Source: Chromera velia
Lineage: Eukaryota; Sar; Chromeraceae
Reading direction: 5' to 3'
Assembly: GCA_018398765.1 (NCBI GenBank)
Contig: JAHBMJ010001003.1
Coordinates: 1 to 37,269 of the forward strand
DNA: 37,269 bases
Shown: piece after piece, positions 1,414 to 28,157 of the stretch
How positions within the stretch are numbered: position 1 is the stretch's first letter
How the letters are laid out: each line of letters opens with the position of its first letter
The notes under the pieces: generated by a model
Told to the model about the DNA's origin: nothing
The model's input: only the letters and a program-made list of their open reading frames with translations
The model's database searches: none
Made by a program: the position numbers and the translations under genes

Positions 1414-4400
1414 ATGGTGCAAATTGTCAGAGGCAGACGGGGAAAGGGGAAGGAGACGGCGAGACGGAATCAGGGCATGTGGAAATGTAGTGTCTGTTTT
1501 GCGCTGATGCCAAATGATCGCACAGTGATTCGAAAGCACTGGAAGCTGACAAAGTACCCTTTGCACAGGTCTGACTTAAAGCCTGTTGGTAGCGTGGTGG
1601 CGAACGGACGCCTAGAAGTGGCCGGTCAACCTTTACCACCCTTCCAGCCCGAGCCTGTGGATGAAGGTGCTCATGATCCTCCCGATGAGTCAAACTCTGA
1701 CTCTGAAGAGTTTGAAGCTGTTTTGGCAGCAGCAGCTGCAGCCGTACAAGGTCGTCGTGGCTGAAGACTGTCTGTGTCTTCGGAGTCGGTGTTTGAGGCT
1801 TTTGGGGGCATGGAGGAGGGAGAAGGGGACCAGATCGTGGACACTGATCTGTGTCTTGAAGAGGCAACTATCGCCAACGCGACCGAGCTTCTTCTCTTCA
1901 GGGCGATCTCGAAGACAAACTCGAACAACCGTAAGGCAGCAGTATGGCTGGAGACATTGAAGCACCCCATGTTTGACAAAAACCAGCTCCCACAAGGAGA
2001 ATTAAAGTCGGCTGTGCAGAGATTGAGGGAAAGATGCATGAGGCAGTATAATTTTTATGAAGAGAAGGAGTACGTTCCAACACTGCCCATATTTGGATGC
2101 ACAACTCTCTCGCGTTCTGAAATCAGAGACAGTAAGTCACCTGATGCCAGCCCAGCGACTTTCGCTTTCTTTTGGAGAGACCCTGTGGAAGCGATGAAAG
2201 TGCTTCTCCGACAAATAGCGATTGCGGGACATCCCTTACACTTTGCACCGACCACATCCTCCGCAATCAGAGAAAATGCGGGTTCAGCAAGGCAACCAGC
2301 GCGGCAGAGAAGGGTTGGGCCTCATTTCAGCAGCGCCGTCTTCTTCAAAGATATCTACAAGGCATTGATTACAGATCAGAATTTAGACACGGGAGAACAC
2401 GGAATTGTTGGCTTCGGATTTTCGGCAGACACCACAGCAACAGCCATCACGCCAATCTACTTGTTCACTACAAGTTCCACACGGAAATCGATTGAGTCTA
2501 GTGTGGGTAAAGTTTTGATTGGTCTCTTTCCAAAATGGAAGTTGTTCTCCAAACAGAAAGCTACAGAGAAACAGGTGAGAAAAGAAGCAGAAAGGAGAAA
2601 CAGGTGTTCTGGTCTCTGTCTGTGTCTTGAACTTCTCTGTCTCTGTCTGTCTGTCTGTTCTGGTCTCTGCCCCTTGTATCCTTATCATTCTTTTCTTTCT
2701 GTTCTTTTTATACCGTTGCAGAAGGCTGCCTTTCGGGACATGAAGATGGAGTGTATAGAAATTATTTTGGAGAGCCTGATCGATGTGGAAGCGGTCAGCC
2801 CACAGCCTGCATTCACGCTGAATCTTCGTGGGAAGCCCTCAAGTGCACCAAGTGGTGAATGGAAACTTCACTGCTTCGGACATCTTTTTTTGGCAGACAG
2901 GCCGATGGCGCAATTGAACGCGTCTGTGTTTGACGGTGGGTCAAAGAAGAAAATTGCACTGCCTTGTCAAATTTGTTATGCCAAAGGGGAGGAGTTAACA
3001 GACTTTAGTGAAGGCACCAGTTTGGTGGGTCGTTTTGCAAAGAAAACCAGAAGGGACATACTGCTGGCAGAAGAAACGTTGTTGGAGGAAAAAGCAAAGA
3101 AAGCAAGAGGGGAAGACAATCAGTTTGCTGAGATGAGCAAAAAACTGTCATTGCATTCATACTCACGGAAGAATCCGTGGTGGAGGCTCCGTTTTTTTTC
3201 TCCTAGATGCATGCCCCCATGTCTTTTGTATGACTGGGAGCTCGGGATTACGAAAAGGTGTGTTGAGACACTTGATTCCCATTTCTTTAATAGAGAGAAT
3301 GAACAGAGATACGGGGACAGGAACAGGCTGGACACTGTCGAGATGTACTTCAAGGAGGTTGTATTACCATCTGAGATGAGCCATCTCAACTCGAAGGGGG
3401 TCCTTTCAAACAGTCATCTCTCAGGAAAACAGCTTTTTCACGCAGTGGAGGTCTGTCAAGAATTTGTTTTCTTTTTTTTCTCTCTCTCCTTTTTATTCTC
3501 TCCTTTTCATTCTCTCATTCTCAATCTCATATTATACAGATCGATCTGTCAGTTGTTTTCTATTTTTGTACGGCTTGTGCATACAGATTCTTCCTTTTGC
3601 GATGGCGTGCAACGGAGTGGCGACTGAGTTGGTGGACATGTTTGCGGAGGTTGCATACGTGGGTTGCCTCCTGAGAAGAGAGTCGTACGGCATGAACAAG
3701 CTGGTTCGACTGAACAACGATCCTGGTTGGTGGCGATCGGCTCGGCGTCCTTATTTGCAACACCATAAAAAAGTTTGTGTCAGTCATGCAAAAGGCTGGG
3801 CGCGACTACACAGCGATGGTCAAGCCGCATGATATTTCCGAGCACACAATTGAAGGGTATATTTACCTTGGCCCTCCTGTACTGTTGTCAACAGAGCCTT
3901 TTGAGCATGCCCACAAGCCTCTGAACGCACTTCTTACCTGCATCACTCGCCGTTACTTTGAAAAATCAATGCTCAAGCGAGTTGCCGAACAAGAAGCTGT
4001 TGATATTCTCTTTGAGAAAGAGGAAGAACAAAAAAGAGAGCGTGAAATGAGAAAAATAAAAGACAAGATTGATGAGAAGTTTTTTTGGCGTGCAGGCGAG
4101 TACTTGCTGTTTGACATTCATTGTTCTGGTGCGCTTGCCTCTGAAATCAGGTTCATTCACCGTTTGATTCCCTGTTTGACAGACTTCATTTATTTGTGTT
4201 TTCACTCCTATGAGCAGGATTCTCCGACAGAGAAAGAGCGAAAGAAGAATGAAATTCGGAACATGCTTTGCGATTTTGGAGGGGTCACTGTGTATAAAAA
4301 AATGTACATGCCGCAAGTGAAGAAGTTTCGCAAGCTTCTTTCCACTGAAAATGAATTTCGCGAAGACACTTTCTCGACTTCGAATGTTTCAGTGGTAGCA

Positions 4401-4910
4401 TCAGCATGGCCTTGCGAGGGGGGAAGCGGGAATCATAAGTACTTTCGTGCGTTTTCTGCTGTAAGGCTGCAGTGGAAAGACAGCGAGTATAATGCGATGC
4501 GTCCAGATGAAGTGGAAGCTCTAATGACAGAAGATGATTTTCAGTCAGAGAAACGCAATCTGTTTGGTGTCTTGTCTCTTCTATTTGTTTTGCATCTACG
4601 TGAAAATGCACCTGCAGAGATGAAAAGTGATAAGTGGCAGTTTGTGATCGGCAAAAAAATGTGTCTGGTTGAATGTTTTCATGAATTTTGTCAATCGCCT
4701 TCGTATGGCGCTGCTCTCCGTTCAAGGTACGTTGCGTTCTTGAAACAGTGTGATGTGCATTTTGTAGACCATGTGGTTGACCGTGTGTTGTTAATGCCAG
4801 ACTTGATGTACAATTGGAGAACAGGCAGAAATCAACAGCGAGGTGGACAAAACAGAGCAGCCCGACATCCAACTGACTGTTGTTTTTGGATAAACGAATT
4901 TGTGACATGA
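1414..4910 (+). pseudogene. CACTA/Plavaka (TNP2-like) transposase, decayed
   Basis: This is a DNA-transposon transposase remnant. Proposed exons are 1414-2574, 2722-3450, 3587 to about 3740, and about 3750-4910. Introns 2575-2721 and 3451-3586 have GT-AG ends and pyrimidine tracts. The N-terminus has a Cys-x2-Cys finger (WKCSVC, from 1477). The family signs are a block FLADRPM followed by PCQICYAKGEE near 2885-2995, and a later block TEPFEHAHKPLNALL near 3890-3935. They match my memory of Plavaka/TNP2 proteins (FLADSPMHAE...NPCRMC; TE-FE--N). Joining exons 2 and 3 gives a clean HAVEILPFAM. Defects are an in-frame TGA at 1762-1764 and a shift from frame 2 to frame 3 between about 3600 and 3770. 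Either could instead be a cryptic intron. I found no terminal repeats for the element. Confidence 0.7.
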
Positions 4911-5654
4911 CCTCGAATGAGCGGCTTTGACTAAGTGACTTCAAAGTTAACTCCGGGATTGATTGACACTTCACATCAAAAATAGTTAAAATAGTAAAAT
5001 AGTATTAGTTGATCGGTTAAAATAGTACAAATAGTCATTTTTTTTACTATTTTCACTATTTACTATTGAGGTGCTGAATGTAGCTGATTCTAAGCTGAAT
5101 GAAACTTTATAAAACTTTTTTTTTCGAACTGTCTGTTTTCTTTCTCCTCTTATGTAATACACGTACTGAAAAGCATTACATAATTGGACTTCATCAAAAC
5201 TCTGATAACTACAAATTGCATTCAAGCTTTGATTGCTTTTAGCTTAGTACTACCTTTGATCGTGTTGTGTTCGTTAAATCTCTCTGCAAGCCTATATACC
5301 GCTTGCCCCTTTAATTTTGAAATATTTGAAAGAATTAAAAAAAAATTGTCTCTTGAGGTTGCCTGTGGCTCAGTCGCTTGGTTTGGGCCCCCGCAGGCCC
5401 AAAAAGCGCGCTGGGCCGAAACGGCACGCGAAGTTTTGCAGGCCGAGCCATGCAGCACGATCGCGTGGAACATGTACATCTCGAGTCACATGCACAGCCT
5501 TCAGCTTTTGAGGGCAGAACTTCTGCCACAAACTTCTGACGGGTAGCCTCTGACCTTCCAGACTCTACTTCGGGTTGAATGCATGAATCGACACGCAGTG
5601 AACAGTACAAGACCCGCGAGATCTGACATTTTTTGACTTTCTGTCTCTTCTACG
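4911..5654. other. Noncoding stretch after transposase
   Basis: The first ~430 bp are AT-rich, with an imperfect palindrome listed separately. From about 5355 base composition jumps to GC-rich. It includes a short hairpin, TTTGGGCC / GGCCCAAA, with a 6-nt loop at about 5382-5403. Small ORFs here show no recognisable protein pattern. Confidence 0.5.
4982..5070. repeat. AT-rich imperfect palindrome with AATAGT motif
   Basis: The left side repeats AATAGTAAAATAGT-like words; the right side carries ACTATTTTCACTATTTACT. The two sides are imperfect inverted copies around about 5035. It may be a subterminal repeat of the upstream transposon, but no matching left end was found. Confidence 0.5.
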
Positions 5655-6137
5655 ATGAGTTTCCCTTCTTCGGAAGCCGCCTTCCTGACTGGTGAGGGGA
5701 GTGCCGAGTCTTTGCACACTATGGGGCTCCTCGGAGGGTCTGCTGAGGGAGAGAGCATGGACCTTCGGAACTCATCTGGAGTCTTGTCATCCTTGCTGAG
5801 TCAAGGAGGAATTCCGAAGACGGGAGACGGCTCTCTGTTGGGAGGCGTCTCTTTCTCGAATGGGACTGATGAAGGACTTGGAGAAGACCATGTGCAGTTG
5901 GGGTCAAACTATACAGAAGAGCCGAATCGTGGCCTCCTGGCTGGCGTGCCTCAGTCGGACGTCCAGGGGGGCGCTTCAGACATCGGGAGCTTTCAAGATT
6001 CTGTGGATGATAGGCTTGGAGGGTCTGGTGTGTTTGGTGGAGGTTCTGTATTTCTGGGTAGTTCAGTTGTCGGGAATGTTCAGGTTGCGCTGCCTTCCCA
6101 CTATTCTGCGACCCTTGCTGCCACGTCACAGGCTTAG
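5655..6137 (+). CDS. Gly/Ser-rich hypothetical ORF
   Basis: A 160-residue open frame starts MSFPSSEAAFLTGEG after a pyrimidine-rich leader and ends at TAG 6135-6137. It is rich in Gly, Ser and acidic residues and has no recognised domain. It sits about 500 bp upstream of the first TPR exons on the same strand, so it could be a 5' exon of that gene. No donor with the right phase was identified. The opposite strand is also open but proline-rich, as expected from composition. Confidence 0.3.
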   Translation: MSFPSSEAAFLTGEGSAESLHTMGLLGGSAEGESMDLRNSSGVLSSLLSQGGIPKTGDGSLLGGVSFSNGTDEGLGEDHVQLGSNYTEEPNRGLLAGVPQSDVQGGASDIGSFQDSVDDRLGGSGVFGGGSVFLGSSVVGNVQVALPSHYSATLAATSQA

Positions 6138-6640
6138 GGGAGTGAGAGGAGAAGGAATCCCGGGGTGAGTGCCTTGGAAAGTACTTTGGGAGAGATGAAT
6201 CCAGAGAGTAGGGGAGGGGGGGGTGGTCTGGGAGCAGTGAGAGTTTCAGTCGAGGGCAGTGTGGAAGTAGAAGATTCGGGTAGAGATGGGCATAAAGGTG
6301 GGAGGGCTGAGCGGGATGGTTCTGCTGAATTGGGGAGAGATGGCCAACTGACTGGGGAGGGGGGGGAGGGGGCTGCCGGGGCTGGATCACCTGATTGGAG
6401 ATAGGGACTTAACTCTCTTTCGGGAACGGCATGAGACATTGAGTGAGGAAGGCACAGGTGCATGTAGTTTTATTTTTTTTTTTTCTTCTTCTTATAGGCC
6501 TGTCAGATCTCTCTTTTTACAGCTGCCTGCCTTGAAATGTTTTCTTTTGTCGTCTCTCATTTTATCATCCTATACTGAAGCGTATTTAGTTTTTTCATGT
6601 TCTCACCTTTCCACTTTTCTGCTTTCCAACCCACTTGCAG
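6138..6640 (+). other. G-rich tract then intron-like region
   Basis: 6141-6402 is strongly G-rich on the plus strand, with runs of 4-8 G (around 6215-6225 and 6357-6375) that could form G-quadruplexes. 6440-6640 is pyrimidine-rich and ends CCACTTGCAG at 6640, a good acceptor for the TPR exon that follows. Confidence 0.5.
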
Positions 6641-7281
6641 ATGAAACACGTGCAGAGACCCTGCAGTTCTTCTTCGATGGTTTGAGAAAGATAGGCGATG
6701 ACTTCAACAGCAAACGTTCCAGAGATGTACTTACGCAATTCGATTTGTCAAGAGACGGTTTGGATCACTACATTTTCAGTGAGGCTGCAATCGGTGGTCT
6801 ATAGAGTCGCCTTCTGACATCCCAGTCTCTGTCTTGTCTCAGCTGTGCAGTTATTCTGTCCTTCTCTCTACTCGCTTGTCTCTTTCAGTCAGAGAAAAGT
6901 TAGCTGACTTTCTCCTGATGGTTATCTATGCAAACAGAGAGACGGGGACAGTGCAGGGTGAGTTTGCAGAGAGACTGTTGGCATCAGCCTTGACCAACAA
7001 AGCTGGCACATTGGTAGAGGCAGGTCACCCTGATGACGCCATGAGAAGGTATGAGGAGGTGCTGCGGGTGCAACAAAAAGATTTTGGGGACGAGCATCCT
7101 GAGACAGCCAGCACCCTTAACAATATGGCTGGGGTGTTTAAACAGCAGGGAAAGTACAAGGAGGCTATGCAGAGGTATGAGGAGGTGCTATGGGTGCACT
7201 AGAAGGTCTTTGGAGACAAGCATCCATCAACAACCCTCACACACAAAATTATTGAAGAATTACGACGACCCGGATTGATGT
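6641..7281 (+). pseudogene. TPR (kinesin-light-chain type) gene remnant, copy 1
   Basis: Two exons, 6641-6778 and 6889-7202, are separated by a 110-nt GT-AG intron. The split codon fits and gives HYIF-I-REKLADFLLMVIYA. The first exon is not TPR (FFFDGLRKIGDDFNSKRSRD). The second holds a lead-in and about two TPR units of the 42-residue type (MRRYEEVLRVQQKDFGDEHP). Such units form alpha-helical protein-binding scaffolds. The frame hits TAG at 7200-7202, where related units at 14166 read CAG, so this is probably a C-to-T nonsense change. The same frame continues through a conserved tail (THKIIEELRR) to about 7281. The 3' part is duplicated near 14284-15241. Confidence 0.65.
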
Positions 7282-8017
7282 AGGCATTGTGGTCTTCCAT
7301 TCATCCCTTTTTCAACTCAATCCGTTCCCTTCTTTCCGGTACTCTTTTCGCATATATGTGAGGGGGTCGCTGTTGTTCAGAGCATTTGATGGCATTTTTA
7401 GGGGAAGAGAAAAATGAATGCAATGCCGCCTCTCTGTTACCCTTTTGAAAGTCCCCACGGGCACTTGCCGTCTGAATCAGACATTCTTCGTACGGCCACA
7501 GCAACAGAAATTGGGAGACGTCTCAGCAAAGTCGTTGCACCTCAAAGCTTTTTCGTCTCTCTCAGCAATAAAAGAATGGACCCATTGAAGGAGGAGGAGA
7601 AAGACTTCAATGGCTGTGCAAGCAACCGACATAACGAACCCACAGAAACTCCAGAGCGCTCTCCTCACATCGTTTTTTTTTGTCAAGGATAGCTTTTGTA
7701 ATCTCTTGCATGGGCTGGTCCACTGATCGGTCTGTTGAGTCTTCTGACATTTCTGAAGAGAGGATCGAACGGTAGCATTGAAGTTCTCGGACAAACCCGC
7801 TACTTATGATGAGAGTGCATCGATCGTGCAGGGGAAGGGGGGGTAGAGGGTGTGAACGAGAGGGAATCAATCGAATTTCCTTCTCGCCTGCATTCGAGCA
7901 GAGGAAGTGCGCCCGATTTTGTTTGAACAGACACCGGTTTGCGCGGGGTGAGAGGGGAGGGGCGGGAAGGAGAAGCTTCAGGACCTGCATGTGAGGGTCC
8001 TGTGCCACAGAGAGTCG
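7060..8017. repeat. Direct repeat, left copy (TPR t3' end plus flank)
   Basis: This matches 14284-15241 in the same orientation, with an offset of 7224 bp over most of its length. It carries the end of the TPR frame and about 730 bp of noncoding flank. In 7600-7785 I counted 12 differences by eye, all transitions. Homology stops abruptly at 8017, where an inverted TPR stub begins. Confidence 0.85.
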
Positions 8018-8680
8018 GACCTTCTGCAGCACTCGCAGCACCTCCTCATACCTTTGCATGGCCTCCTCATACTTTGTTCCATGCTATTAGGCGCCACACA
8101 GAGATGGCTCAAGGCAAGGCTGGTTTAGGGACAGAAGCTACAGGACTGGCCAGAAAGTTCACTCAAAGACAGGCTTAAGGTTCCAATTCTCTGAGCAACA
8201 CCTAGAGCTCTCCACCACTCGACTCGATTCAATCTCGATCTATTCGCTAGCTTCCACTCAATCTAATCGTGCATGGCTAACGTAGGAGACGCTAGAGACT
8301 GCTCCGTCTCCTTTTGTCCTGGCTTTCGACTACAACAATTGGAATCTCCTCTATTTTCTCTCTGATTCTGGACAGGACGGCATGTAGAAAGAGACGCCGC
8401 GTCTCCCAAGCATGGATCCGGTTGGGGACGCGCGTGTATTTAATCGCCACCACAAAAATTAGGAGAACCACATAAATTAGGCCCACTGCGTTGTTTCCTC
8501 GTGGCATGCCTGGGTACATCGATTTGTTCCGGGGCCCTGGGTCCTGTGCGGCCTACTTCGCACGGCCTTCCCCCATTGCTTTGCCCACGGGCAGCCCTAG
8601 GCGCCCGTGGCTGGTCTAAATGGCTGTAAGGCCCGCCGCCTCCCGCGGCTCCTGGCGCGCCTAAGTAGGACATCACACAT
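8018..8680 (-). repeat. 663-bp inverted repeat, left arm
   Basis: This arm is the reverse complement of 12884-13546, with equal arm lengths and no indel seen. It consists of 57 bp of TPR coding sequence read on the minus strand (8018-8074) and the 605-bp LTR-like sequence (8075-8679). Differences from the right arm are almost all transitions. Confidence 0.9.
8075..8679 (-). mobile_element. LTR-like 605-bp sequence, left (inverted)
   Basis: On the minus strand it begins TGTGTGATGTCC and ends GGAACA, i.e. TG...CA bounds. It has the same length as the copy at 12885-13489. Both copies are followed by the same TPR sequence, AAGTATGAGGAGGCC. It contains two small open frames also open in the other copy: one starting MSYLGAPGAAGGGGPYSHL, and one with a hydrophobic LIYVVLLIFVVAI stretch. 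No purine tract precedes this copy. LTR identity is inferred from ends, length and the purine tract beside the right copy. Confidence 0.5.
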
Positions 8681-8771
8681 AAAAGATCGAATGACAGACG
8701 AGAAGACAAACCCAAGCCATATGAAAAAATTTTCTAAACAAAGGACTGACCAGAATCAGCAAGACCCAACA

Positions 8772-8931
8772 AAAGGAAGCAGACAGGCAGAGAGAAGTCA
8801 TACTTACAGACAGCAAGCATAGAGATAGAAAGGTGAAGGGATGATCTTTCAAAGGGAAGCAGACAGGCAGAGAGAAGTCACACCTGCAAACAGCAAGCAT
8901 AGAGATAGAAAGGTGAAGGGATGATCTTAAC
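8772..8931. repeat. 80-bp tandem duplication
   Basis: Two adjacent copies share GAAGCAGACAGGCAGAGAG (8776 and 8856) through GGTGAAGGGATGATCTT. The copies differ at a few positions, all transitions. On the minus strand each copy contains a pyrimidine tract like an intron acceptor. Confidence 0.9.
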
Positions 8932-9108
8932 CGTAGCCACCTGTCCGACCTTGACGGTTGGCCTAAGCAAAACGCAAAGACGTGGACCTAAGGCCTGAAG
9001 AACATAGCTAGGCACCCCGGGGGTGTTCAAAAGCATAGTACCGGGTCCGTCATGGAAGGTAAAAGGTTGCGTCGGACACAGATCATCAGCAGGACAAGAG
9101 TCTTGCAC
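8932..9108 (-). CDS. Coding-like fragment, unknown family
   Basis: On the minus strand an open stretch reads VQDSCPADDLCPTQPFTF and continues to LLRPTVKVGQVATV. It is preceded by a T-rich region and runs into the 80-bp duplication. It may be an exon remnant of an element in the opposite orientation. I do not recognise it and there is no start codon of its own. Confidence 0.25.
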
Positions 9109-9607
9109 CTTTATAAAACAAATGAAAGGAATAAAAAGACAGACATTCACACAAAGAGGCCAGAATGAAAAGGAGATGGGAAGGAAAAGATGTGTCAGAC
9201 TAAGCAGACAAGGTCAGGCACACAAGAGAGACCAGACTGACCGATCCGAATGCTGGAACCCTGTATCGGTACCTGCGAACATTCATGAAATTCAAAGGTA
9301 ACCGGCCCCACGAAAATCGGATCACTCAAAATTATAATAACTACAGCCCTCAAACCGATTAAAAAAAACCACGTACGCATCCAAAACAAACACAGATATA
9401 CAACAAAGGGTCCTCATGTACGGCTTGCTCAAACAGAAACCAAATTGCCAAACCCAGAACACCATCATTTAGTCTTCCCTCCAACCTTCATTCATAAAGA
9501 CCGGTAGAAAATGGCACAGAGAGAGAGACCCACCGTTATCAGCATCAAGAAAGGGACTGGAATGGAAGTAGTCCAATTCTCATAGACCCTCCTGACAAAG
9601 AAGGCTA

Positions 9608-10993
9608 GGGTATTTCACTAAAAAAAAAATTAATTTTATACCCCCCCTTTCAAGTATGTAAAACACTCTAAACATCTAAAAGTATACTCAATGTGGTTCT
9701 TTACTTAAAAGAACCTTTATAAACTTAAAAAAAGACTTGTAGCATCATGCTTTATGATAGTTATTTAAGGTTTTCATCATGTTGCCACTTAGGGTTCTAA
9801 GAATAATAAAAACATCGTTATGTAACCTAACACTTAACCTACCTAAACCTTATGTAACCTGGTATAACCTGCTTCAAATCACTTCATTAACACCAGCAGA
9901 CATGGTTTTCAAAACTATATGACTCAACTCTCCTTCAGCTTTCATCCTTTTCACCACTTTCATGCTCAATCATATCATTAAACTGACTTTCTGTACAAGC
10001 AAGCTCGTCATTATTCACCGTTACCCCCCCTCCAACCAAAACTGCCGAATGCAACCAGAAAAAAACAGTAAAAAGGGGTGTGTCATCAGTTCTCGGCGTT
10101 AACGTGCGACGGAATAAAAGCAGTTTGAACTCTGTTGTGCCATCTGAAGAAGAAACCCGTTCATATGAAATGATACGAGCGGAAAATGCGGCATTCTCTT
10201 CAATAAGAGCAATCCGAGATACCCCCAAACTTCTTCCTTTTTTTGTTGTCAGGTGCACATCAGATGGATCAATTAAGTCCAAAACTTTGCTGACAAACCA
10301 CTCTTCCGTACTGCTGTTACTGCTTTCCTACCTGCAAGCAACAACGTCCCCTACTGCAATAGAATAGTCCCCCCTCTCTGGCAAAACATGACAAAATCGA
10401 GGCTTGCGTGTCAAACGCGTCACTCGATCAGCATGCAGCTTTTCATCCTGCAAAAATATATAAGCAGAAGAAAGGAGCCTTTTTGCTTTCGATCTTTTAT
10501 TGCCATCACACTCTTTTCTCTGTTGTCCTTGATTCTATTTGTCTGCCAGCTTGAATGCTCCATCGCAAATTTATCAAAATTTAACAATGTTTTTCCCGTG
10601 TGCATGATTGCCTAGCTTGCCAAGACGAGGTGTCTCAATAACAGTTTTAAAGAGTCAAATCATCAGTTTTAAGTTTGTTTTGAACAGTTTGAGGCTAGTT
10701 TATACTATGTTAATACTGGTATTGGCAGGTTCAAGCAGGTTTTAAAAGATGACAACGTTAAAATGAAGGTTTTGTAACCTTGTGTCCGAACCTTCATTGG
10801 TAACGACCCCTAAACCTACCTTTAACCTAATATGACCTTGCTGAACCAAGGATTTTACATGCAATTATGTGTTTAAATGACTTTTTAGCAAAATTAGGCT
10901 AGGAATATATTTTAAAAAATGTCTAAAAACTGTTTTTTTGTAAGGTTTTTTACTATAAAACTTAATACATCTCCATCAAAGTGAAATACCCTA
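9608..10993. mobile_element. 1386-bp TIR transposon inserted in gag-like frame
   Basis: CTAGGGTATTTCACT (9605-9619) and its exact reverse complement (10980-10994) bound the element. The match continues imperfectly inward (TTAATTTTATA versus TTAAGTTTTATA). Flanking sequence is symmetrical at CTAG, so the target duplication is TA or CTAG and cannot be told apart. Removing 1386 bp (462 x 3) rejoins the host frame. Subterminal AACCT-containing words cluster at about 9825-9880 and 10800-10840. It contains a minus-strand gene remnant. The superfamily is not assigned. Confidence 0.75.
9935..10447 (-). pseudogene. Gene remnant inside the TIR transposon
   Basis: An exon-like frame begins after TTTTTGCAG on the minus strand at 10447 (DEKLHADRVTRLTRKPRF). 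It passes GDYSIAVGDVVACR, meets an in-frame TAG at 10328-10330, and continues EEWFVSKVLDLIDPSDV to a TGA at 9935-9937. The GDVVA...EEWFVSKVLDL pattern resembles small SH3/Tudor-like barrels often found at the ends of transposon proteins, which is a weak resemblance. A preceding exon may lie at about 10460-10615 (KFAMEHSSWQTNRIKDNRE). No transposase catalytic domain is visible, so the element is probably nonautonomous or decayed. Confidence 0.4.
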
Positions 10994-11304
10994 GAGAGAA
11001 GGCCTACGAGATTGAGCTTCATGCTTACTGACAGGGCCTTCTCAACGCACAGAGTCAGCCACAGCAGCAGCAGGCACAGCCATAGGAACAAGGAGAGGCA
11101 AACGCAGAGGGGAACGAACAACCCTCTCAAAACGATAACGCTTCAGAGGACATCTTTGGGGACCTCGAAAGCATCCAAGAGGACCAGGAAATGTGCGAAG
11201 AGAACGCACCTATGGAGGATTCTGAAGGCGCACAGATGTGGAAGATGAAGGAGGAGGAAGACTCAGATGATGAGAGCTCAGCCGAATCTCTCACTTCAAT
11301 CTGA

Positions 11305-11681
11305 AAGGAAAACGAGATGGAACGAGTTGGGCGCCACGCATGTAACATAACAAATATCATACATGAGAGCATGGTAGAAAGGCAAATCGAAGGCTACCAT
11401 TCACTTAGTGCAGGGCGTGCGAACTAGGTCAGTTACTTGACGCAGGGGTACGTAAGGTCACGTCGAGGGGCGGGAGGCGACCAGACTTCCTCTCCACGTA
11501 CAAACAACAAACTGCACATCAAAGGTATAGTCTTCTATAGTCTTCTGTAGTCTTCAAGAGCCAGGCTTATACAACAAGGACTATACAAGCATATATACAA
11601 GAGAAGATAGGGGAGAAAAATAGAATAAAGAAATGTAAGGAAGGCTTCGTGAAGGAAGGGGCATATAGAAAGAAGTCTTCA
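11305..11681. other. Noncoding 3' region of LTR-like element
   Basis: AT-moderate sequence without coding pattern. TATAGTCTTCT is repeated about three times near 11525-11560. GAAGGAAGGGGCA at 11651-11663 copies the purine tract found just before the right LTR-like sequence. Confidence 0.5.
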
Positions 11682-11689
11682 TTAGTGAT

Positions 11690-11732
11690 ACTAGGGGGTA
11701 GCACTATAATGAACATTATAGGTACCCCTAGT
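11690..11732. repeat. Hairpin at element end
   Basis: ACTAGGGGGTA (11690-11700) can pair with TACCCCTAGT (11723-11732) with one bulged G. Inside it TATAATG pairs with CATTATA (11705-11711, 11714-11720) around a 2-nt loop. The left terminus of the TIR element can therefore fold on itself. Confidence 0.7.
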
Positions 11733-11733
11733 T

Positions 11734-12618
11734 TGGCGGGCTTCCTAACTAGTTAAGATAATAGTTTAGACTTATGCTACATAAAAGTTATAGATATAGA
11801 ACATGTTAAAGATTCAATTTCTATTCTGGCGGGCCATTCATGCTTTCTAGTTCATGAGAAATTGTTGTTCAAAGGTGGTGTCGCCACGATCTGGCAGGGC
11901 TTTTCATGGTGGGGATGGACTTTGACAAACCTTCCCCTCCCGCCAGTACACCTGCCCCGCCACGTCCCGCCAGATACAGTCAATCCCTGCCAAGAAACGT
12001 GAACACCTCACGCATACCCTGCAAGGTCTCTGTATCTGTTACATAGACAGATAGACAGAGAGATAAACAGACAGACAGAAATACAGGCAGGCAGGCAAAC
12101 GAGAAGAGAGAACGAACAGACAGTCAGTCAGTCGTAGACAGGCAGACAGGCAAGCAGGCAGGCAAACGAGAAAAGAGAACGAGCAGACAGTTAGTCAGTC
12201 GTAGACAGGCAGACAGGCAGGCAGGCAGGCAGGCCATTCTATGCCAACCAATATGAACCAATGGGTTTGGATAGAGAGAACTGTGTGAACCAACTGCTTA
12301 AGGCGGCAGATCCAGGCGGCAGGTGGTGGCGGGAGGCTGGCGGGTGGTGGTGAGGGGCTGGTAGGGGGCGGACGGGGATATAAAAGCATGGTAGACTTTC
12401 CTTTGGCGGGTATTTCTTTCGTTGGCGGGGGGATCCAAGCATTGATAGACTCCAGGGCTCCGCTAGGTCAAGCTGCCCGCCACCCCACCAAATCATGGCA
12501 ACATGACTTTGAACCAATTTTTTGAAGTGAAAATATAATCCGCCATCAGTTCTGTTAGCTTAAATCAACACTTTAGAATATGGAAAAAAAGATTGGTATA
12601 TAAACCAAGTGCCCGCCA
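11734..12618. repeat. Cluster of eleven TGGCGGG motifs, both orientations
   Basis: Plus-strand copies start at 11734, 11827, 12327, 12338, 12404 and 12423. Inverted copies (CCCGCCA) start at 11939, 11956, 11966, 12476 and 12612. Flanking bases differ, so these are not copies of one longer repeat. About 0.1 would be expected by chance in 885 bp. Inside a TIR element they are best read as transposase-binding subterminal repeats. The motif also resembles an E2F-type site. Confidence 0.85.
12041..12236. repeat. CAGA/CAGG/CAGT microsatellite with 67-bp unit
   Basis: Interrupted tetranucleotide repeats, with a longer unit (GTCGTAGACAGGCAGACAGG at 12131 and 12198) showing a 67-bp period. Confidence 0.85.
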
Positions 12619-12870
12619 TGTCTAGATTTTTTGTTAGAGAATATATAAAGTTAGGGTCACCCTTATACAGTAACGTAGACTCTAAGTGCTACCCTCTAGT
12701 TAGTGATACACAGTGATATAATAACATAAGTCAGAGCCATCTCTTTGAAGCATCTCCACCATTCTTCTCCGTCTCCACAGTTTCCCTTTAGTTCGTTTAT
12801 TTTTTTTGTATATGCGCGCACGTAGCAGTGATGTGTGAATAAGGTTCTTCCTTTTTAAGGAAGAATCCCA

Positions 12871-12884
12871 TGAAGGAAGGGGCA
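12871..12884 (+). other. Purine tract (candidate PPT)
   Basis: TGAAGGAAGGGGCA lies directly before the TGTATGATGTCC start of the right LTR-like copy. This is where a polypurine tract primes plus-strand synthesis in LTR elements. The interpretation depends on the LTR call. Confidence 0.45.
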
Positions 12885-13546
12885 TGTATGATGTCCTACT
12901 TAGGCGCGCCAGGAGCCGCGGGAGGCGGCGGGCCTTACAGCCATTTAGACCAGCCGCAGGCGCCTAGGGCTGCCCGTGGGCAAAGCAATAGGGGAGGGCC
13001 GTGCGAAGTAGGCCGCGCAGGACCCAGGGCCCCGGAACAAATCGATATGCCCAGGCATGCCGCGAGAAAACAACGCAGCGGGCCTAATTTATATGGTTTT
13101 CCTAATTTTTGTGGTGGTGATTAAATACACGCGCGTCTCCAACCGAATCCATGCTTGGGAGACGCGGCATCTCTTTCTACATGCCGTCTTGTCCAGAATC
13201 AGAGAGAAAACAGAGGAGATTCCAATTATTGTGGTCGAAAGCCAGGATAAAAGGAGACGGGGCAGTCTCTGACGTCTCCTGCATTAGCCATGCATGATTA
13301 GATTGAGGGGAAGCTAGCAAATAGATCGAGATTGAATCGAGTCGAGTGGTAGAGAGCTCTAGGTGTTGCTCAGAGAATTGGAACCTTAAGCCTGTCTTTG
13401 AGTGAACTTTCTGGCCAGTCCTGTAGCTTCTGTCCCTAGACTAGCCTTGCCTTGAGGTATCTCTGTATGGCGCCTAATAGCACGGAACAAAGTATGAGGA
13501 GGCCATACAAAGGTATGAAGAGGTGCTACGAGTGCTGCAGAAGGTC
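12884..13546 (+). repeat. 663-bp inverted repeat, right arm
   Basis: Reverse complement of 8018-8680 with equal length. The outer 57 bp (13490-13546) is the start of the TPR frame of copy 2. Confidence 0.9.
12885..13489 (+). mobile_element. LTR-like 605-bp sequence, right
   Basis: It starts TGTATGATGTCC and ends GGAACA, and abuts TPR codons at 13490 (AAG TAT GAG GAG). The preceding purine tract suggests a 3' LTR inserted in a TPR gene. Two small frames (from 12888 and 13057) stay open here and in the inverted copy. No direct-orientation partner LTR is in the window. Confidence 0.5.
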
Positions 13547-14641
13547 TTTGGTGACAAGTACCCTTCAACAGCTAGCACTCTCCACAATATGGCTTTGGTG
13601 TTTAAACAGCAGGGAAAGTACGAGGAGGCTATGCAGAGATATGAAGAGGCACTGCGGTTGCAACAAAAGGTCTGTGGGGACGAGCATCCTTCAATAGCCA
13701 GCACCCTCCACAACATGGCTGGGGTGTTCAAAAAGCAGGAAAAGTACGAGAAGGCAATGCAGAGGTATGAGTTGGTGCTGCGGATGCGGCAGAAGGTCTT
13801 TGGTGACGAGCATTCTTTAACAGTCGCCACCCTCCACAACATAGCTGGGGTGTTTAAACAGCAGGGAAAGTACGAGGAGGCCATGCAGAGGTATGAGGAG
13901 GTGCTGCGGGTGCAATAAAAAGATTTTGGTGACAAGCATCCTGAAATAGCCAGCACCTTCCACAACATGGCTATGGTGTTTTAACAGCAGGGAAAGTACG
14001 AGGAGGCCATGCAGAGGTATGAGGAGGTGCTGCAGATGCAGCAAAAGGTCTTTGGGGACGAGCATTCTGAAATAGCCAGCACCCTTAACAATATGGCCTT
14101 GGTGTTTTAACAGCAGGGAAAGTACGAGGAGGCCATGCACAGGTATGAGGAGGCGCTGTGGGTGCACCAGAAAGTCTTGGATGACGAGCATCCTTTAACA
14201 GCCACCACCCTCCACAATATGGCTGGGGTGTTGGTGGAGCAGGGAAAGTACGAGGAGGCCATGCAGGGGTACGAGGAGGTGCTGCGGGTACAACAAAAGG
14301 TCTTTGGTGACGAGCATCCTTCAACAGCCGGCACCCTCCACAACATGGCTGGGGTGTTTAAATAGCAGGGAAAGTACGAGGAGGCTATACAGAGGCATGA
14401 GGAGGTGCTGCGGGTGCGGCAGAAGGTCTTTGGAGACGAACATCTGTCAACAACCCTCACACGCAAAATTATTGATGAATTACGACGACTTGAAGGTGGG
14501 ATTGATGCAGGCATTGTGGTCTTCCATTTATCCCTTTTTCAACTCAATCCGTTCCCTTCTTTCCGCTCTTTTCACATATATGTGAGGGGGTCGCTGTTGT
14601 TCAGAGAATTTGATGGCATTTTTAGGGGAAGAGAAAAATGA
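13490..14641 (+). pseudogene. TPR (kinesin-light-chain type) array, copy 2
   Basis: One frame holds about eight 42-residue (126-bp) TPR units with the repeat core GKYEEAMQRYEEVLRVQQKV and FGDEHP...TLHNMAGVF. It ends in a non-TPR tail (LTRKIIDELRRLEGG) with TGA at 14639-14641. The 5' end is cut by the LTR-like sequence at 13489. In-frame stops lie at 13916 (TAA), 13982 (TAA), 14108 (TAA) and 14363 (TAG), with no frameshift. The TAA at 13982 and 14108 replaces the same Lys codon in consecutive units. Stops at 13916 and 14363 fall on Gln codons. It is a relic of a protein-interaction scaffold gene, with sequence closely matching copy 1 at the 3' end. Confidence 0.8.
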
Positions 14642-15241
14642 ATGCAATGCCGCCTCTCTGTTGCCCTTTTGAAAGTCCCCACGGGCACTTGCCATCTGAG
14701 TCAGACACCCTTCATACGGCCACAGCAATAGAAATCGGGAGACGTCTCAGTAAAGTCGTTGCACCTTAAAGCTTTCTCGTCTCTCTCAGCAACAAAAGAA
14801 TGGACCCATTGAAGGAGGAGGAGAAAGACTTCAACGGCTGTGCAAGCAACCGACATAACGAACCCACAGAAACTCCAGAGCGCTCTCTTCACATCGTTTT
14901 TTTTTGTCAAAGATGGCTTTTGTGATCTCTTACATGGGCTAGTCCATTGATCGGTCTGTTAAGTCTTCTGACACTTCTGAAGAGAAGATCGAACGGCAGC
15001 ATTGAAGTTCTCGGACAAACCCGCTACTTGTGATGAGAGTGCGTCGATCGTGCAGGAGAAAGGGGGGTAGAAGGTGTGAACGAGAGGGAATCAATCGAAT
15101 TTCCTTCTCGCCTGCATTCGAACAGAGGAAGTACGCCTGATTTTGTTTGAACAGACACCGGTTTGCGCGGGGTGAGAGAGGAGGGGCGGGAAGGAGAAGC
15201 TTCAGGACCTGCATGTGAGGGTCCTGTACCATAGAGAGTCG
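14284..15241. repeat. Direct repeat, right copy
   Basis: Matches 7060-8017. After the TPR tail it is noncoding. Homology ends at 15241, beyond which this copy runs into a G-rich tract. Confidence 0.85.
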
Positions 15242-16070
15242 TGATGGGGGGGGGGAGGGGAGAGAATGGGATGGCCTCCCAGAGGCTACAGAAGACTCTG
15301 AGGATGCTGAAGGTGGGAGTCTGAAGCTGAAAGGGTTCATTCGGAAGGACTCGTGTGTGTTCTGCTATGGGAAAAGGGAGCAGGTGGAGCCATAAGCAGA
15401 GAGAGGTAGGTATTTCAAAACACACACATATGGACATGCTCTCTCTCTCTCTCTCTCTCTCACTGACACACGCACACACACATACACACACACATACACA
15501 CACACAAAACGTAGAAAACAAACACATTGTTGGGATGGAAATGGGCATCTCTTCCTGCACCTGACATAACTGTTTGAAGAAATCCTTCTACCCCCCTCTC
15601 TGGCCTTTGACTTTCTTTGGGTGCTTCATCTCTTCCCTTCCTGAGCTGAAGCCTGCAACTTGGGTGGTAGGCACGGAAGGGCCTTTGTTTGAATCAGTGT
15701 CGTACTGTGTGACTCTAGGTATGACTACATGTGTGCATGGGCCGTCTGACTATGCATTGCGATACAGATCCTCTGAGATTTCCTGGGGACCTTCGGGGAG
15801 GAGAACACGAAGACTCCAGGTTGTCGGAAGGAGATCGAGGATATGGGGAAGGGGGGGGGCGATCTCAATCAAGACAAGAAAGGGAAAGGGAGGGAGAAGC
15901 GGGCTAGGAGGGGGGTGCCGTACGTGTCGGGACAGAAAGAGAAATGAGGAGGGGAGGGGATACATATGGAGCATAGCGATGCAGGAGGTAGACTCAAATC
16001 AAAATTTGATAATTCAGAAAAGCACTAGGAAAAGCAAAGAATTTGAAAGTAGATTCTCTCCCCCCTAAAA
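15242..16070 (+). other. G-rich DNA, microsatellites and a Cys-x2-Cys coding scrap
   Basis: A frame at about 15290-15407 reads EDSEDAEGGSLKLKGF then DSCVFCYGKREQVEP and a TAA, followed by a donor-like GTAGGT. The C-x2-C-Y-x-K-x-E pattern recalls PCQICYAKGEE in the transposase at 1414-4910, so this may be a scrap of a related element. A further open stretch (15574-16068) has no recognisable pattern. Confidence 0.3.
15439..15508. repeat. (CT)n then (CA)n microsatellite
   Basis: (CT)11 at 15439-15460 is followed by interrupted (CA)n to about 15508. Confidence 0.95.
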
Positions 16071-16678
16071 AAATATTTGAAACAAAGAACTTCAACTTAG
16101 TAAAAAGCGTGACATTTCTACAGAAAAATATCTTTGTATGCTAGTATATTTTTTGTAAATTTTGGTTACCAACTTAATATTAGTACACTCTTTATATTGT
16201 GACACGTCACACCTGTCAGTGAGGCTGCATCATATCTACAAAAAAAGTCTAGAAAACAGCCTGAATTAAAATTATAATTAACTTGAATTAAGTATAGTTC
16301 CAATACTTATACTAAAAAACTAATTTAAACTAAAATAAAATGAACTTAAATATCAAAATATTGTTTCTGTAAACAAAAACGGTTTCTATATAAACTTTTT
16401 TTTAGCCTCGATCTTTCCCATTTTTTCTCTAGTAGCTCTTCCCTAAACTCTTTCTAGAACTTTTTCTATATGGTAACTTTTGAAGCTTCTACTTAGACCT
16501 TAATAATAAACACCCTACCAGTAGTAAGCACCAGAGTAGTTCATGCATTTATAAACTTGAATTCATTTACTTAATTTAAGTCTAATGTTGCTGTTGATCG
16601 ACATAGTCTAAGTCGTGGTCTTGTTTGAAAAGCTTAAAGTGTCTCACTCAATCAAAACCCCAAATCATGAGTCGCCTG
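16071..16678. other. AT-rich noncoding DNA
   Basis: Low-GC sequence left of the hAT-like element. No ORF, RNA gene or repeat could be supported. Confidence 0.6.
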
Positions 16679-16686
16679 AACTAGCA

Positions 16687-17984
16687 TAGTGATCAGATTT
16701 GATTTGATTTGAAGTAGGGCTTAACTTTAAATCAAATCTTAGGCCTGAGAAACTTTAGCATGACAGGGCCTATCAAATCCTATCAAACCTACTTTAAATC
16801 TGAGTTATTATCTAACCCTTTAACCTCAAATCTTCGAGGTGACTCTCGAAGATGACCTAAGATAAAAACTTATGTAAGCTCAAAGCTTTGAGCCTTTGAC
16901 AATAGCTCATTAATTTTAAGAGTCTCAATTTAGCTTTTATCTAGGCAACGCACAGTGATAAAAAAAAAAAAATCTGAAAACGTCTATTCTTTTTTTTTTT
17001 TATTTAAAATTTTATTGTATATGTAAAAAAAAATAAAGGTTAAATGACTAGCTTCAGCTAGAGTTTGAATCATATCTAGGATCCCAGTTTCACTTTTAGC
17101 TTGGTAGACGCTTAAAAAGATTGACCAAAACTAGCTTCGACTAGAGCTTCGAAATGTATATCGTCCTAGATATCGTCAAAGAGCCACTCAAAGAACTTCT
17201 CCTCTGTCTGCTCTTCTGTCTGCATCCATGTATCCATCCTTCTTGTCACTCTTTGCATAAGATAAAAGAGAGCCCCCTTTTCCCTTCGCCTGCCCGCTCG
17301 CCTTCATCCCTGTAATCCCTTTTTGCGATGGTCGCTGCATGCAGTGCCATATACGCAGACTTCATTCATTTTTTAATAGACACAGCAAAGAGAAGAGAGA
17401 AAAGTCTGGTGGCAGTGCAGTTGAACAAGGGGAAAAAGATTGGTACATTGGTCCATGTTCACTGTTCAACAAAGTCGATGATGGAATGGTGAAGACACTG
17501 GTAGAGACACTAGTAGAGACAAACATACAATAACAACTAGGACTAGAACTAGGGTTGAAACTGGGGTTGAAAGATGTTTAAAACTTTGAGTTGAGTAATA
17601 AGTTCACGAGGAAGTTAGTTTAAAAGTGCTTCTAAAAGGTGCTCTTCTAGGTACTCCTAGAGGTGCTCTAGGAAATCTTTCATAGAAAAAAAGAAAAAAC
17701 AAAAATCTGGAAAGGTCTATTTTTTTTTTTTTTTTACTACTGTGCATCGCCTAGGCTTTTACTACCATTGCAGTAGTCTAGTTTTTAGTGATTTTCTTAT
17801 CTCTCGGGCTTTCTAGGATTTGCTAGTGGTGTCGACTATGTCATGTCGTCTTCAGTGCTGTCGAGACTAGTGTCGAGAGTGACCTCGAGACTTCAATCTC
17901 AAATCTACCCCAAATCTGGTCAGATTTGAGCTTGAAGCTCAAATCAAATTAAATAAAATTCTATTAAATCAAATCTGGTCACTA
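16687..17984. mobile_element. 1298-bp hAT-like nonautonomous element
   Basis: The ends TAGTGATCAGATTTGATTT and, inverted, TAGTGACCAGATTTGATTT match at 18 of 19 positions. They are flanked by AACTAGCA (16679-16686) and AACTAGCG (17985-17992), a 7-of-8 target duplication. An 8-bp duplication and termini of the YARNG type are hAT features. Degenerate inverted similarity continues inward for about 300 bp, e.g. a TCTAGGCAACGCACAGT-like word near 16940 against its inverse near 17740, and a TCGAGGTGACTCTCGA-like word near 16835. The interior (17200-17530) is less AT-rich and has one 64-codon ORF of no known type. No transposase is seen. Confidence 0.75.
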
Positions 17985-17992
17985 AACTAGCG

Positions 17993-18330
17993 CTCCAATC
18001 GGCCCAATTGTATTCTAGATTGTATTATACTCTAAAGAATAGAGTTAGAAATAGACTGAGAAATAGGTTATTAGATGGGTTAAAAAATCTGTGTAGTAAA
18101 AAATTCTTAATGACGAAAGTGCAGGATCATATTAGATGATGATGATGAGCCTGAGTGCTAGCCTGAGTATCATCATCATCATCATCATACGCCATCGCCA
18201 TCGGCCTATAAATAGGCGTCTAGCGTTCGACGGCAACGCACGAGGCAGTTCATCATGCTTTGTATGATGGCTGCATGAAAAAACTGAGGACTGCGGCTAG
18301 TAACGTCAGGCCGTGACACTAAGTTATTCA
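17993..18330. other. Noncoding DNA 3' of the large minus-strand gene
   Basis: AT-rich sequence without coding pattern; includes the GAT/ATC hairpin listed separately. Confidence 0.5.
18134..18189. repeat. Trinucleotide hairpin (ATG)n / (CAT)n
   Basis: ATGATGATGATGA faces TCATCATCATCATCATCAT across about 20 nt. The loop contains GCCTGAGT twice. It lies about 150 bp beyond the stop codon of the minus-strand gene. Confidence 0.8.
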
Positions 18331-18654
18331 CTAATTGATCAATAATTTCTCTGCAGCTTCTCCCAGCATCTCTTCCTCCGGATTTTCCGCCAACGAATGC
18401 AGACTGTGAGTGAGCCGAGAGAGTTCCTCTTCCCCCTCTGGAGGCGTCTGCGCGCCCGCCGGAAGATCAAGACCGAAGCTGGGGTTGGGGCGCTGCATAT
18501 GTTTTTGTCAGCCAGCAGACAAAAGGATGTACAATGAAGATGGAGAGTAAGAGAGACCTCAACAGAACGAGAGGGTGACCGACGGATTGACAGGTATTCA
18601 TGCACTTCTACGCACAGCCATGTGGAGAGAAAGTTACAGACGAAGAGAAGCAGG

Positions 18655-18696
<42 letters not shown>

Positions 18697-21600
18697 AACA
18701 AAGAGACAGACTGACGTCCAGACCCCAACCAAGAGAGGTCTCAGGCCGAGGTCCCCTCAGTCCTCCTTCTCGAATTTTCAGAGGCACACGGAGGTCTGCA
18801 GGGAAGGAAGGAAGGAAGCAGGACAGCAACAAGAAAGGGAAAAGAGGAGAGAAGAGAAGAGCGTCCACAAAACAGATCCGCTCAGCGCAGCCAAGCATTT
18901 TGACACACAGATAGACACAGGCAGAGCCGAACGCAGCCTCCTCTTTCGTTGACTGTTTTTCCCCTGCCCTCCATTCCTCTCCTTCTATAACTCTTTTCGT
19001 CTTGCACTTTTTCTCCTGGCTTTGCTTCTTTCCTATCCTAACTTCTTGTACTTAGCAAGGCGCTGCTTTAGTCACTGGCAGAAAGACTAGGCGCAGACTC
19101 TGCCCCAAGGGTCAGGGGGGGTCTCTGGTGACACAAAAAAACATAAACGGGGAAGAGAAAGGGTCTGTTCATTCGAAATGCGTAGCAGACCAGACTGACC
19201 AGGAGCAGACATCGCCTGCAGTCTACTGCTCGAGTTTGGTGCAGCTGAGAATTCCTGTCTGTTCCTTCCTGTCGCCTCCCTGTCTCTCTTCTTCTGCTTC
19301 TTATGACTTTCTTCCCACTCCGCCCACAGCTCCTCCCTCCTCTGCTGTCTCGAGGATCTCCGCCCCCCTTTCCCAAAGGAGCCGTCTGTGGTGACACTGG
19401 TCCCGTGGAGACTCTGGCTAGCGTCGTGGGGGCCTCCCGGTAGTGTACGGGACAGAGACCTTGAATGCGAGTGAGAGTGAGAGGCCGTCTCTGAAGGAGA
19501 GGCACCATGGGCTCCTCGGGAACGTGACACAGTGAGGGTCTGCAGAGAGACCGCTCTAGGGGACCGGGTACGCAGACTTCCTGCACCGCATCCTGACGCC
19601 AGCGTCTTCTGCTCAAATTCCTTCAACTGCTTCAGGTAAGGCCTGCACATACAAGTGCAAATGAACACAAAGTCACACACTCACACACACACAGGGAGAG
19701 AGGGACAGAGAGAGAGACACAGCCGATAGCGAAAAATGGGAAGAGTTCGGAGCACACGCTCTATTTTTTGTCATCTCTCTCTCTCTCTCTCTTTCTCTCT
19801 GGCCCCTTTTCCCTTCCAATCATGTTTTCTAGCTCTCCTTTTCTTGCTTCTCACTCGTTCTTCCTTCTTCCGTTCTTCCGACTCCCCTGCACTGACTGAC
19901 TCTGCATGTTGGAGGAAATCAAAGAAGGGAATTTTCGTTTTGGTCCTCTCGGGGCTGTTGAAGATTCCTCCAGTTTTTAGACCTCCACCCTTTCCCCTGC
20001 CCTCAAATCCCTCTCCCCTTCTGCCCAGGCCCTCTCCCTCATGATCCCATCCATTCTCTTCCAAGTCTCTTCGGAGAGCACGCTGGAAACGTCCGAGCTC
20101 GGGGGTCCAACTTTCCTGCATGCATCGTTACATTAGATCACAGGGAGGAAGGATGTCTTCTTTGTGCAAAAACAAAGGCAGATGTTGCAGCTTGGACCCT
20201 CGACAAAAAGAAGCCTTACACCTTTTGCCTGCTGAAGGGAATTTTGTCTCGAAAACACGACTGCCCAGTCTTGACAAGTTTTAGCACATTGTACAGACCC
20301 AACAAACAGTCCGAGCTCAAAAAAGAATTCACGACAAGATGAGAAGAGAGCTCACTCACCTGAACGGCAGCCAAGAGCTTTCGACATCTCAGTTCCCTTC
20401 TCTTCTCCCGTCTCTGTCTCCGGACCGCAGACCGACGAGGGGTGCGTGTGCGTGTCATCTCAGCAGGTTGACCGTCTGGGCCCGTAAAGGGATTGGGGTC
20501 TGTGGCCCCGTAAAGCGGAAATTTACAAGACTCGTCTCTATACCTCCGAGGATATTCGACAATGCCTGGATAAAGTCTCGGGGACACCTGGGAAGCGGGC
20601 CCGAAAAACCGTTTTTTTATCTTTCCCTCTTCCCCATTTCTTCCTCTCATCTTCGACCGCCAGCAAAACTGTGTCGAAGACTTTATGATATCTTCTTCCT
20701 CTTCCTTAACATTTTTCGTTCTCCTTTCCCTTCTCCCCCCCTGTTCATTACTCCCTTTTCCCCGGTCGTCCGGATTGTCTTCACAGAGATCATCCGGAAA
20801 CTCATCACTGCTGGAGGAGGAGTCAATTGACCGCAAAAGGGGACACGAGAAGGAGGCCCAGAGAGGTAGCTCCTCTTCCTCCTCATCGCAATCCTCAATC
20901 ACACCCAAGACAGAGTCGCCACCACCCGACACAGAAGTCCCCCCCCCTTCTCGGAGAACTGCTGGAGCTACATGGTGTTGGAATGCAGCAACGATGTGTG
21001 ACCTCCTTAACCCCGAACTGCAATCCCGATGTTCGGTGTCAGATGCGAGAACGACTCCGGGTTTCTTCCCGAACCATACAGGCTTGTGAGGAACCTGCGC
21101 GGTGGGTTTGAGAGAAAGAGAACGGGTACACCGAGTGTTGCCCTCCCCTACAGTGGAGGTCGGAATCATACTGCGGGATGCTTGGCGTTCGTGTAGCTCT
21201 TCCACCCTCATCTGCTCCTTCAAGATAACCTCCTTCCGAGTCGCCTCAAAACGACCTGTAGTCCGGTGGGGCGCCAGTGCTTGTGTACCTTTCAGACTGC
21301 AATCAAGTACCCACACATGTGCTCAACTGTGGAGAAAGTCCTTTTATCGCAAGGCTTGAAAATGGTTGGGACCAATTGACAGCGGTCGAGAAAGTCTTTC
21401 TACGTCACAAAAGCATCTGGATAGGCAGAAAGAACCATGATTTGTGAAGACCAGACGAAATGGTTTTGCCTGTAAGCGGCACTCTTCTGGCGATTCTGTC
21501 TTTCTTTCATTTCCCTCCCTATGCGTTCGCTTTTCCTCCTTCCTCCCTTCCGAGTTTCAGTCCGTCGATCAGACCGTCTTCTTATTTTGAATGTCACTTT

Positions 21601-27099: not shown

Positions 27100-27579
27100 G
27101 GGGGTATGGGAGCATCCGCCCGTCCGGGTAGTACCTCCACCCCATACACATACATCACGCAACTGCTCGGCATTACCCGCCGCACGCTACGTATCTGGTC
27201 ATACATACGGTCTATCGGCCCGCTCCCTAGAGTGGTCCTAAACAAAAAACCTCCGGCATGCAGTACCAGTTAATGAGGAAAAACAGACCAAGGCGGAAAA
27301 CTGACTCATGCTAAGAGGAGAAGAACTCCCACCAAGCACGCTGCATCAACGACCGAGAAGAAGAATAGATAAATTTAGTCAGCATAACCTCCTCTAGCTC
27401 TAAGAGGAGGGTGCAGCACCAGACAGTCTTCAACTTCCAAGGCCAGAACCAAATCTCCCTCTCCGCCTCAAGTCACACTCTCTCACTCCGGCCCAGTATA
27501 TCAGACCAACACACCCAACCCCCTACTCCTTTACAGACAAGAACATTACGCACAAGGGATGGGAAGATATATACCCTTG

Positions 27580-28097: not shown

Positions 28098-28157
28098 GGT
28101 GGAACGCCGGCCTGCAGAAAGAGTTGATTTAGTGGCGACTCTACACAGCAGACTGGC

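Follow-up and report, generated by a model that had tools for sequence, protein, structure and literature searches.

Transition-dominated divergence between direct and inverted duplicates of a TPR-gene locus in a Chromera velia contig

Layout of the duplicated locus

The stretch of DNA analyzed here, referred to throughout as the window, comprises 37,269 bases of Chromera velia contig JAHBMJ010001003.1. It is eukaryotic in aspect, with abundant microsatellites and simple repeats. The subject of this report is a TPR-gene locus within it, parts of which are present twice and the copies of which differ from one another almost entirely by transitions. Two duplications meet at the locus. In the direct duplication, positions 7032-8017 pair with 14252-15241, and in the inverted duplication, positions 8018-8680 pair with 12884-13546. 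Their boundary falls exactly at 8017/8018, the last base of the direct duplicate being followed at once by the first of the inverted one, and no microhomology is obvious there by eye. The two have diverged to a like extent, with differences at 43 of 779 bases (5.5%) in the module that follows the TPR units and at 40 of 663 bases (6.0%) in the inverted arms (P = 0.73). This similarity, together with the position of the junction, is suggestive of a single rearrangement that involved a template switch.

The TPR unit is 126 nt in length. The right gene copy contains an array of eight such units on the plus strand (13489-14455, the last one partial), for which the frame matches Pfam TPR_12 at 7.6e-77, and the left copy contains two. 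The first of these, a unit of 42 amino acids at 7032-7150 (plus strand), matches TPR_10/TPR_12 in plus frame 3; compared with each of the eight units of the array over 119 bases, it shows 17 to 44 differences. Judging by these alignments, the right array probably lacks a clear ortholog of this unit, and 14252-14370 is probably not its orthologous counterpart. The second and last left unit (7151-7235, plus strand) pairs with 14371-14455 and carries an in-frame TAG, at the first position of which seven of the eight other units, and also that at 14371, have a cytosine. In-frame stops also occur in three units of the right array, such that the five stops are distributed among the units beginning at 13867 (two), 13993, 14245, and 7151. 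Three of the five sit where other units carry CAA or CAG, and the remaining two arise from a common AAA-to-TAA transversion. Given that both TPR gene copies contain stops, both look dead. The post-TPR module follows at 7236-8017 in the left copy and at 14456-15241 in the right copy, in each case on the plus strand.

The left inverted arm (8018-8680, minus strand) is 94% identical to the reverse complement of the right arm (12884-13546, plus strand). Each arm is built from 58 nt of TPR sequence, antisense at 8018-8075 on the left and located at 13489-13546 on the right, and about 605 nt that begin with TG and end with CA behind a purine-rich stretch (12885-13489 in the right arm, the last base being common with the TPR unit). 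By eye, this longer segment resembles a long terminal repeat (LTR). An identical 15-base purine-rich string is observed at 11650-11664 and 12871-12885, the second of which runs into the LTR-like arm, and this string may be the polypurine tract of a decayed retroelement. An LTR retrotransposon bounded by the two arms fits poorly, for the repeats are inverted rather than direct, and no Pfam polymerase was detected nearby in scans that covered 1-15002 in the plus frames, with E values up to 0.001, and 5500-15401 in the minus frames, with E values up to 0.01. The arm-end pattern gave no matches in a viral contig collection.

Transitions and transversions between the copies

The initial annotation of this DNA had reported that all 12 differences between 7600-7785, a segment of the module, and its copy are transitions. 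Alignment with 14824-15009 confirms this, with 12 transitions and no transversions over 186 bases. The module as a whole shows 40 transitions and three transversions over 779 bases, and two of the three transversions fall within the first ∼60 columns, one beside a 7-base gap. The inverted arms align without gaps and differ by 38 transitions and two transversions over 663 bases; extending the alignment beyond the arm ends gives 38:3 over 665 columns, and the former count is used here. The last TPR unit contributes 11 transitions and one transversion over 85 bases. Pooling of these three young comparisons yields 89 transitions and six transversions, a ratio of about 15. The 95% interval for the transversion fraction is 2.4-13.2%, which corresponds to ratios of about 6.6-41. 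The bias in the duplicates is both real and strong. With a ratio of 2, two thirds of the differences in the module and arms would be expected to be transitions, and the observed 78 of 83 depart from that value with P = 2.5e-9. Drift at such a ratio is the wrong description of this stretch, as the annotation had argued in stating that drift would yield more transversions. The value near 2 that it had set against its own claim is not seen in the whole-duplicate alignments.

The comparison of the TPR unit at 7032-7150 with 14252-14370 gives 12 transitions and eight transversions, and there the bias is absent. As the array offers it no clear ortholog, this unit was left out of the pooled count; its inclusion would bring the total to 101:14. 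When the TPR array, the two left units, and the 58-nt arm stretch are compared with their consensus, 90 transitions and 48 transversions are counted, or 88 and 44 following removal of seven non-homologous bases (7025-7031).

Could selection have produced such a bias? The differences show neither codon phase (P = 0.42 for the module and 0.90 for the arms) nor clustering along the sequence (P = 0.28 and 0.73, respectively), and coding selection therefore does not explain the bias. Selection might also act on RNA, given that the inverted arms could pair with one another and that transitions would preserve pairing through G-U. The direct module, however, is equally biased though repeat searches found no inverted partner for it, and selection on a hairpin leaves its bias unexplained. 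We regard selection in either form, coding constraint or RNA pairing, as extremely unlikely.

Another explanation is that the whole genome is extremely transition-biased, with pyrimidines lying between purines being hot in both directions, such that the repeats are not special. We hold this to be the likeliest of the rival explanations, though with well under an even chance. In its favor are the other duplicates in the window. A 79-nt tandem duplication (8770-8928) differs by five transitions and no transversions (5:1 if base 80 is included), a 67-nt tandem with a 96-nt overlap gives 7:2, and a three-copy 120-nt tandem gives, in a three-way alignment, 8:1 plus one column with three states. The 205-nt arms of a palindrome at 34515-35090, separated by 166 nt, differ by two transitions, both of the CpG type. 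Indeed, the annotation had ascribed the same bias to the 80-bp duplication and to the palindrome, and these counts bear it out. Pooled, the additional duplicates amount to 22:3, which is not different from 89:6 (P = 0.39), or to 22:4 with base 80 (P = 0.22). Note that the palindrome is near-perfect, its divergence being below that of the inverted arms of the TPR locus, and that the three 120-nt copies (33754-34118) lie within long open frames on both strands.

Other classes of sequence argue against a uniform spectrum. Interruptions of microsatellites number 20:6, which differs from 89:6 (P = 0.02); eight of the 20 transitions represent one change type in one array, and without that array the count is 11:5 (P = 0.009). 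Short minisatellites give, by subtraction, 32:21 (P = 1e-6), although many such arrays may be chance. The fourfold sites of the TPR units give 9:4 (P = 0.018). All three of these controls are small or imperfect. Additionally, the 120-nt tandem is less biased in some comparisons of its copies by pairs, with 8:5 for one pair and 2:4 in a sub-part (another pair shows 5:1). For Emiliania huxleyi, PMC7486954 gives a measured ratio of only 1.11.

With respect to the remainder of the window, the only protein families above the cut-off in the scanned frames are TPR, with overlapping TPR-like models, and a reverse transcriptase of the long interspersed nuclear element (LINE) type with RNase H; the whole-frame scans covered the plus strand and, on the minus strand, everything outside 15402-18999 and 34002-37269. 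The LINE-type element occupies 27570-30436 on the minus strand, with RVT_1 at about 29516-30436 (2.3e-29) and RNase H at about 27570-28016 (8.4e-25), and among solved structures the frame 30029-30649 is best matched by proteins of R2 retrotransposons. An open frame of ∼620 amino acids at 1768-3624 (plus strand) shows a weak match to a Plavaka transposase that lies below the cutoff (E = 0.06). In the viral contig collection, four pattern matches were found for the protein of 28161-29414 and seven for that of 1768-3624, none of which was confirmed. The window contains no Rfam matches at gathering scores. The region from 16001 to 18000 is AT-rich, with 30-39% GC versus 48% for the window.

Context and direction of the changes

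Many of the differences had initially been described as CpG versus TpG or CpA. This description does not hold, since CpG-type transitions account for only one of the 12 in 7600-7785 and for 19 of the 78 in the module and arms (8/40 and 11/38, respectively), where CpG constitutes 18-20% of the C sites. The sharp context is, rather, a following purine. When pyrimidine sites of the module and arms with an unchanged 3' neighbor are sorted by that neighbor, 34/262 (13.0%) differ before A, 19/304 (6.3%) before G, 15/393 (3.8%) before T, and 7/382 (1.8%) before C (chi-square P = 1e-8). Pyrimidines with a purine on both sides (RYR) differ at 42 of 326 sites versus 46 of 1187 for all others. The CpA context accounts for 34 of the 78 transitions, and CpG, CpT, and CpC together for 44. 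Expressed per site holding a cytosine, the differing fractions are 40/224 for CpA, 23/157 for CpG, and 26/432 for CpC plus CpT. CpA thereby exceeds the remainder (49/589, P = 2e-4), and CpG exceeds CpY (P = 0.002). The excess of CG over CHH sites (49/515) has a P value of 0.077, and that of CHG (17/141) over CHH is not significant (P = 0.43). Differing sites number 2/50 for CTG and 13/58 for CAG. TpA, which arises when CpA decays, is unshared more often than any other of the ten dinucleotides in the module (18/27, versus 13-32% for the others), and it stands level with GpT in the arms (17/41 and 12/29, versus 11-32% for the others).

Two familiar forms of methylation damage are disfavored on these grounds. 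Simple decay of 5-methylcytosine (5mC) at CpG does not account for the module and arms, where 59 of the 78 transitions are non-CpG and where the observed/expected ratio for CpG is retained at 0.75-0.80. These values correspond to the 72nd-81st percentile of 366 segments of the window and signify no depletion, whereas the TPR array, at 0.41 and the 5th percentile, is depleted. Decay of plant-type CHG methylation fits poorly because CHG is not significantly above CHH. For TpA, the arms are rich (89th and 95th percentiles), and the module is poor (10th and 16th).

With the other TPR units as the outgroup, the direction of change could be assessed in the last unit (85 nt) and in the 58-nt TPR stretch of the arms. 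C-to-T changes number 11 (six at CpA, three at CpG, two at CpT, and none at CpC) and T-to-C changes two, in addition to one G-to-C change and one that is ambiguous. The 11 C-to-T changes are derived in the left unit (five), the right unit (three), and the right arm (three). Both the C-to-T direction and the occurrence of change in both copies are partly established by these sites. Comparison of the TPR units with their consensus gives 69 C-to-T or G-to-A changes versus 21 in the reverse sense (68 versus 20 without the seven non-homologous bases). For the YpA class, rough likelihoods favor a C-to-T share of 0.75-0.9 over one of 0.5 by a factor of about six. With regard to a genome-wide spectrum, the RYR preference is in its favor, as is the fact that T-to-C changes among the TPR units likewise prefer a following purine. 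The predominance of C to T among the polarized changes, and the roughly sixfold poorer fit at YpA of a share of 0.5 than of 0.9, stand against hot sites that mutate in both directions.

A deaminase confined to a single strand in a single copy was also considered and rejected, for strand runs are absent (P = 0.34 and 0.32). Runs by copy are likewise absent (P = 0.13 and 0.90). In the arms there is a borderline excess of Y-type differences (27:11, P = 0.051), and the T/A state is found in the left copy at 13 sites and in the right copy at 25.

Interpretation of the transition excess

On the basis of these data, the most likely reading, to which we give an even chance, is that the dead duplicates have decayed passively and neutrally, chiefly through cytosine deamination at CpA and CpG. 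The TPR-gene locus and the flanking LTR-like repeat would have been duplicated at approximately the same time, one part in direct and the other in inverted orientation, and both copies would then have decayed with no visible coding constraint. C-to-T change on either strand, favored by a 3' purine as in CpA and CpG, would have dominated, and transversions would have been few. The chemistry is most likely the deamination of cytosine, perhaps within a silenced cluster of repeats where the cytosines of CpG and CpA carry methyl groups. We infer deamination, any methylation, and a process not aimed at repeats from the pattern of the differences. The annotation had proposed decay that was either 5mC-based or akin to repeat-induced point mutation (RIP). 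Its cytosine component gains support from the 3' purine context and from the 11 C-to-T versus two T-to-C changes; its CpG-only form is disfavored, and the RIP indices, described below, lend RIP no support.

The locus resembles other duplicated pseudogenes in neutral decay in its stops, its absence of codon phase, and the even spread of its differences, and it departs from them in its ratio of about 15. Ratios of 1 to 4 are usual, and a value of about 15 falls outside the usual nuclear range. Likewise, it shares with 5mC deamination in silenced repeats the C-to-T leaning decay of dead sequence and the excess of CpG over CpY, but here CpA differs at least as often as CpG does, and CHG is not significantly above CHH. 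Methylation is of the CpG type in animals and of the CG/CHG/CHH type in plants, and neither pattern fits this locus well. A literature search on deamination of LTRs returned no match, and the terms methylation, TPR, and GC content do not occur in the main text of PMC4501334.

Several observations weigh against passive cytosine decay. In the young pairs CpG is not hotter than CpA, unlike in ordinary 5mC decay, and the module and arms are not CpG-poor. If all change in the module had been one-way from C to T, its starting observed/expected ratio for TpA (nine shared TpA) would have been 0.178, which is under the lowest of the 782-bp segments tested (minimum 0.184); some of the module changes therefore probably ran from T to C. 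Moreover, the T-to-C changes among the TPR units also precede purines (eight TpA, ten TpG, two TpC, and one TpT), a preference that cytosine chemistry leaves unexplained. The young differences outside of the TPR sequence cannot be polarized, and the direction rests on 13 polarized transitions (11 versus two). Finally, the TPR stretches were formerly coding, and the C-to-T excess may in part reflect relaxation.

An active mutator of the RIP kind, directed at duplications and converting C to T in both copies shortly after they arose, would account for nearly transition-only differences, for change in both copies, and for the preference for CpA. We consider it improbable. The CpA dominance calculated in the manner of RIPCAL is 34/44 = 0.77, which is "medium" on the scale of PMC2621366 (0.5-1.2 medium, above 1.2 high). 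Both duplicates are longer than the 400 bp quoted there for Neurospora, three of the five TPR stops sit at the CAA or CAG positions noted above (the other two being the transversion), the arms are TpA-rich, and the TPR array is CpG-poor. On the other hand, none of the 366 segments of 700 bp passes both RIP index thresholds. In the four young copies, TpA/ApT ranges from 0.39 to 0.91 and (CpA+TpG)/(ApC+GpT) from 1.32 to 1.47. The corresponding values in PMC2621366 are 1.70 to 2.16 and 0.24 to 0.74 for the repeat families presented, and 0.83 and 1.25 for a non-repetitive control, and the simple indices are called unreliable there. Only a few percent of the sites have changed here, and light RIP damage would hardly move the indices.

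Additional points against RIP are the TpA-poor module, the CpG retained in the module and arms, and the absence of strand and copy runs. In the tandem TPR array, which RIP would be expected to hit, transversions make up 44-48 of the 132-138 changes, although most of these may predate the duplication. No finding in the window points to a fungal host. RIP of filamentous fungi is matched in the transition-dominated duplicates of more than 400 bp, in the change of both copies, and in CpA as the commonest context; it is not matched in the 44 of 78 transitions at CpG, CpT, and CpC or in the lightness of the damage. RIP of the fungal type is not supported for these duplicates. A non-fungal analogue that introduced C-to-T changes at CpA and CpG into both long copies, and thereby killed the duplicated TPR gene, we hold to be very doubtful. 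Among the matches listed in a literature search on RIP-like processes outside of fungi, all were fungal, as judged by title or the start of the abstract, and among those listed for RIP with CpA, TpA, or protist, most were.

If the spectrum proves to be the same genome-wide, the lineage would have an unusual mutation spectrum, with relevance to the dating of duplicates and to the distances estimated within it. Otherwise, a transition/transversion ratio near 15 combined with a 3' purine context would allow non-CpG cytosine methylation, or an analogue of RIP, to be recognized cheaply in this lineage from sequence alone.

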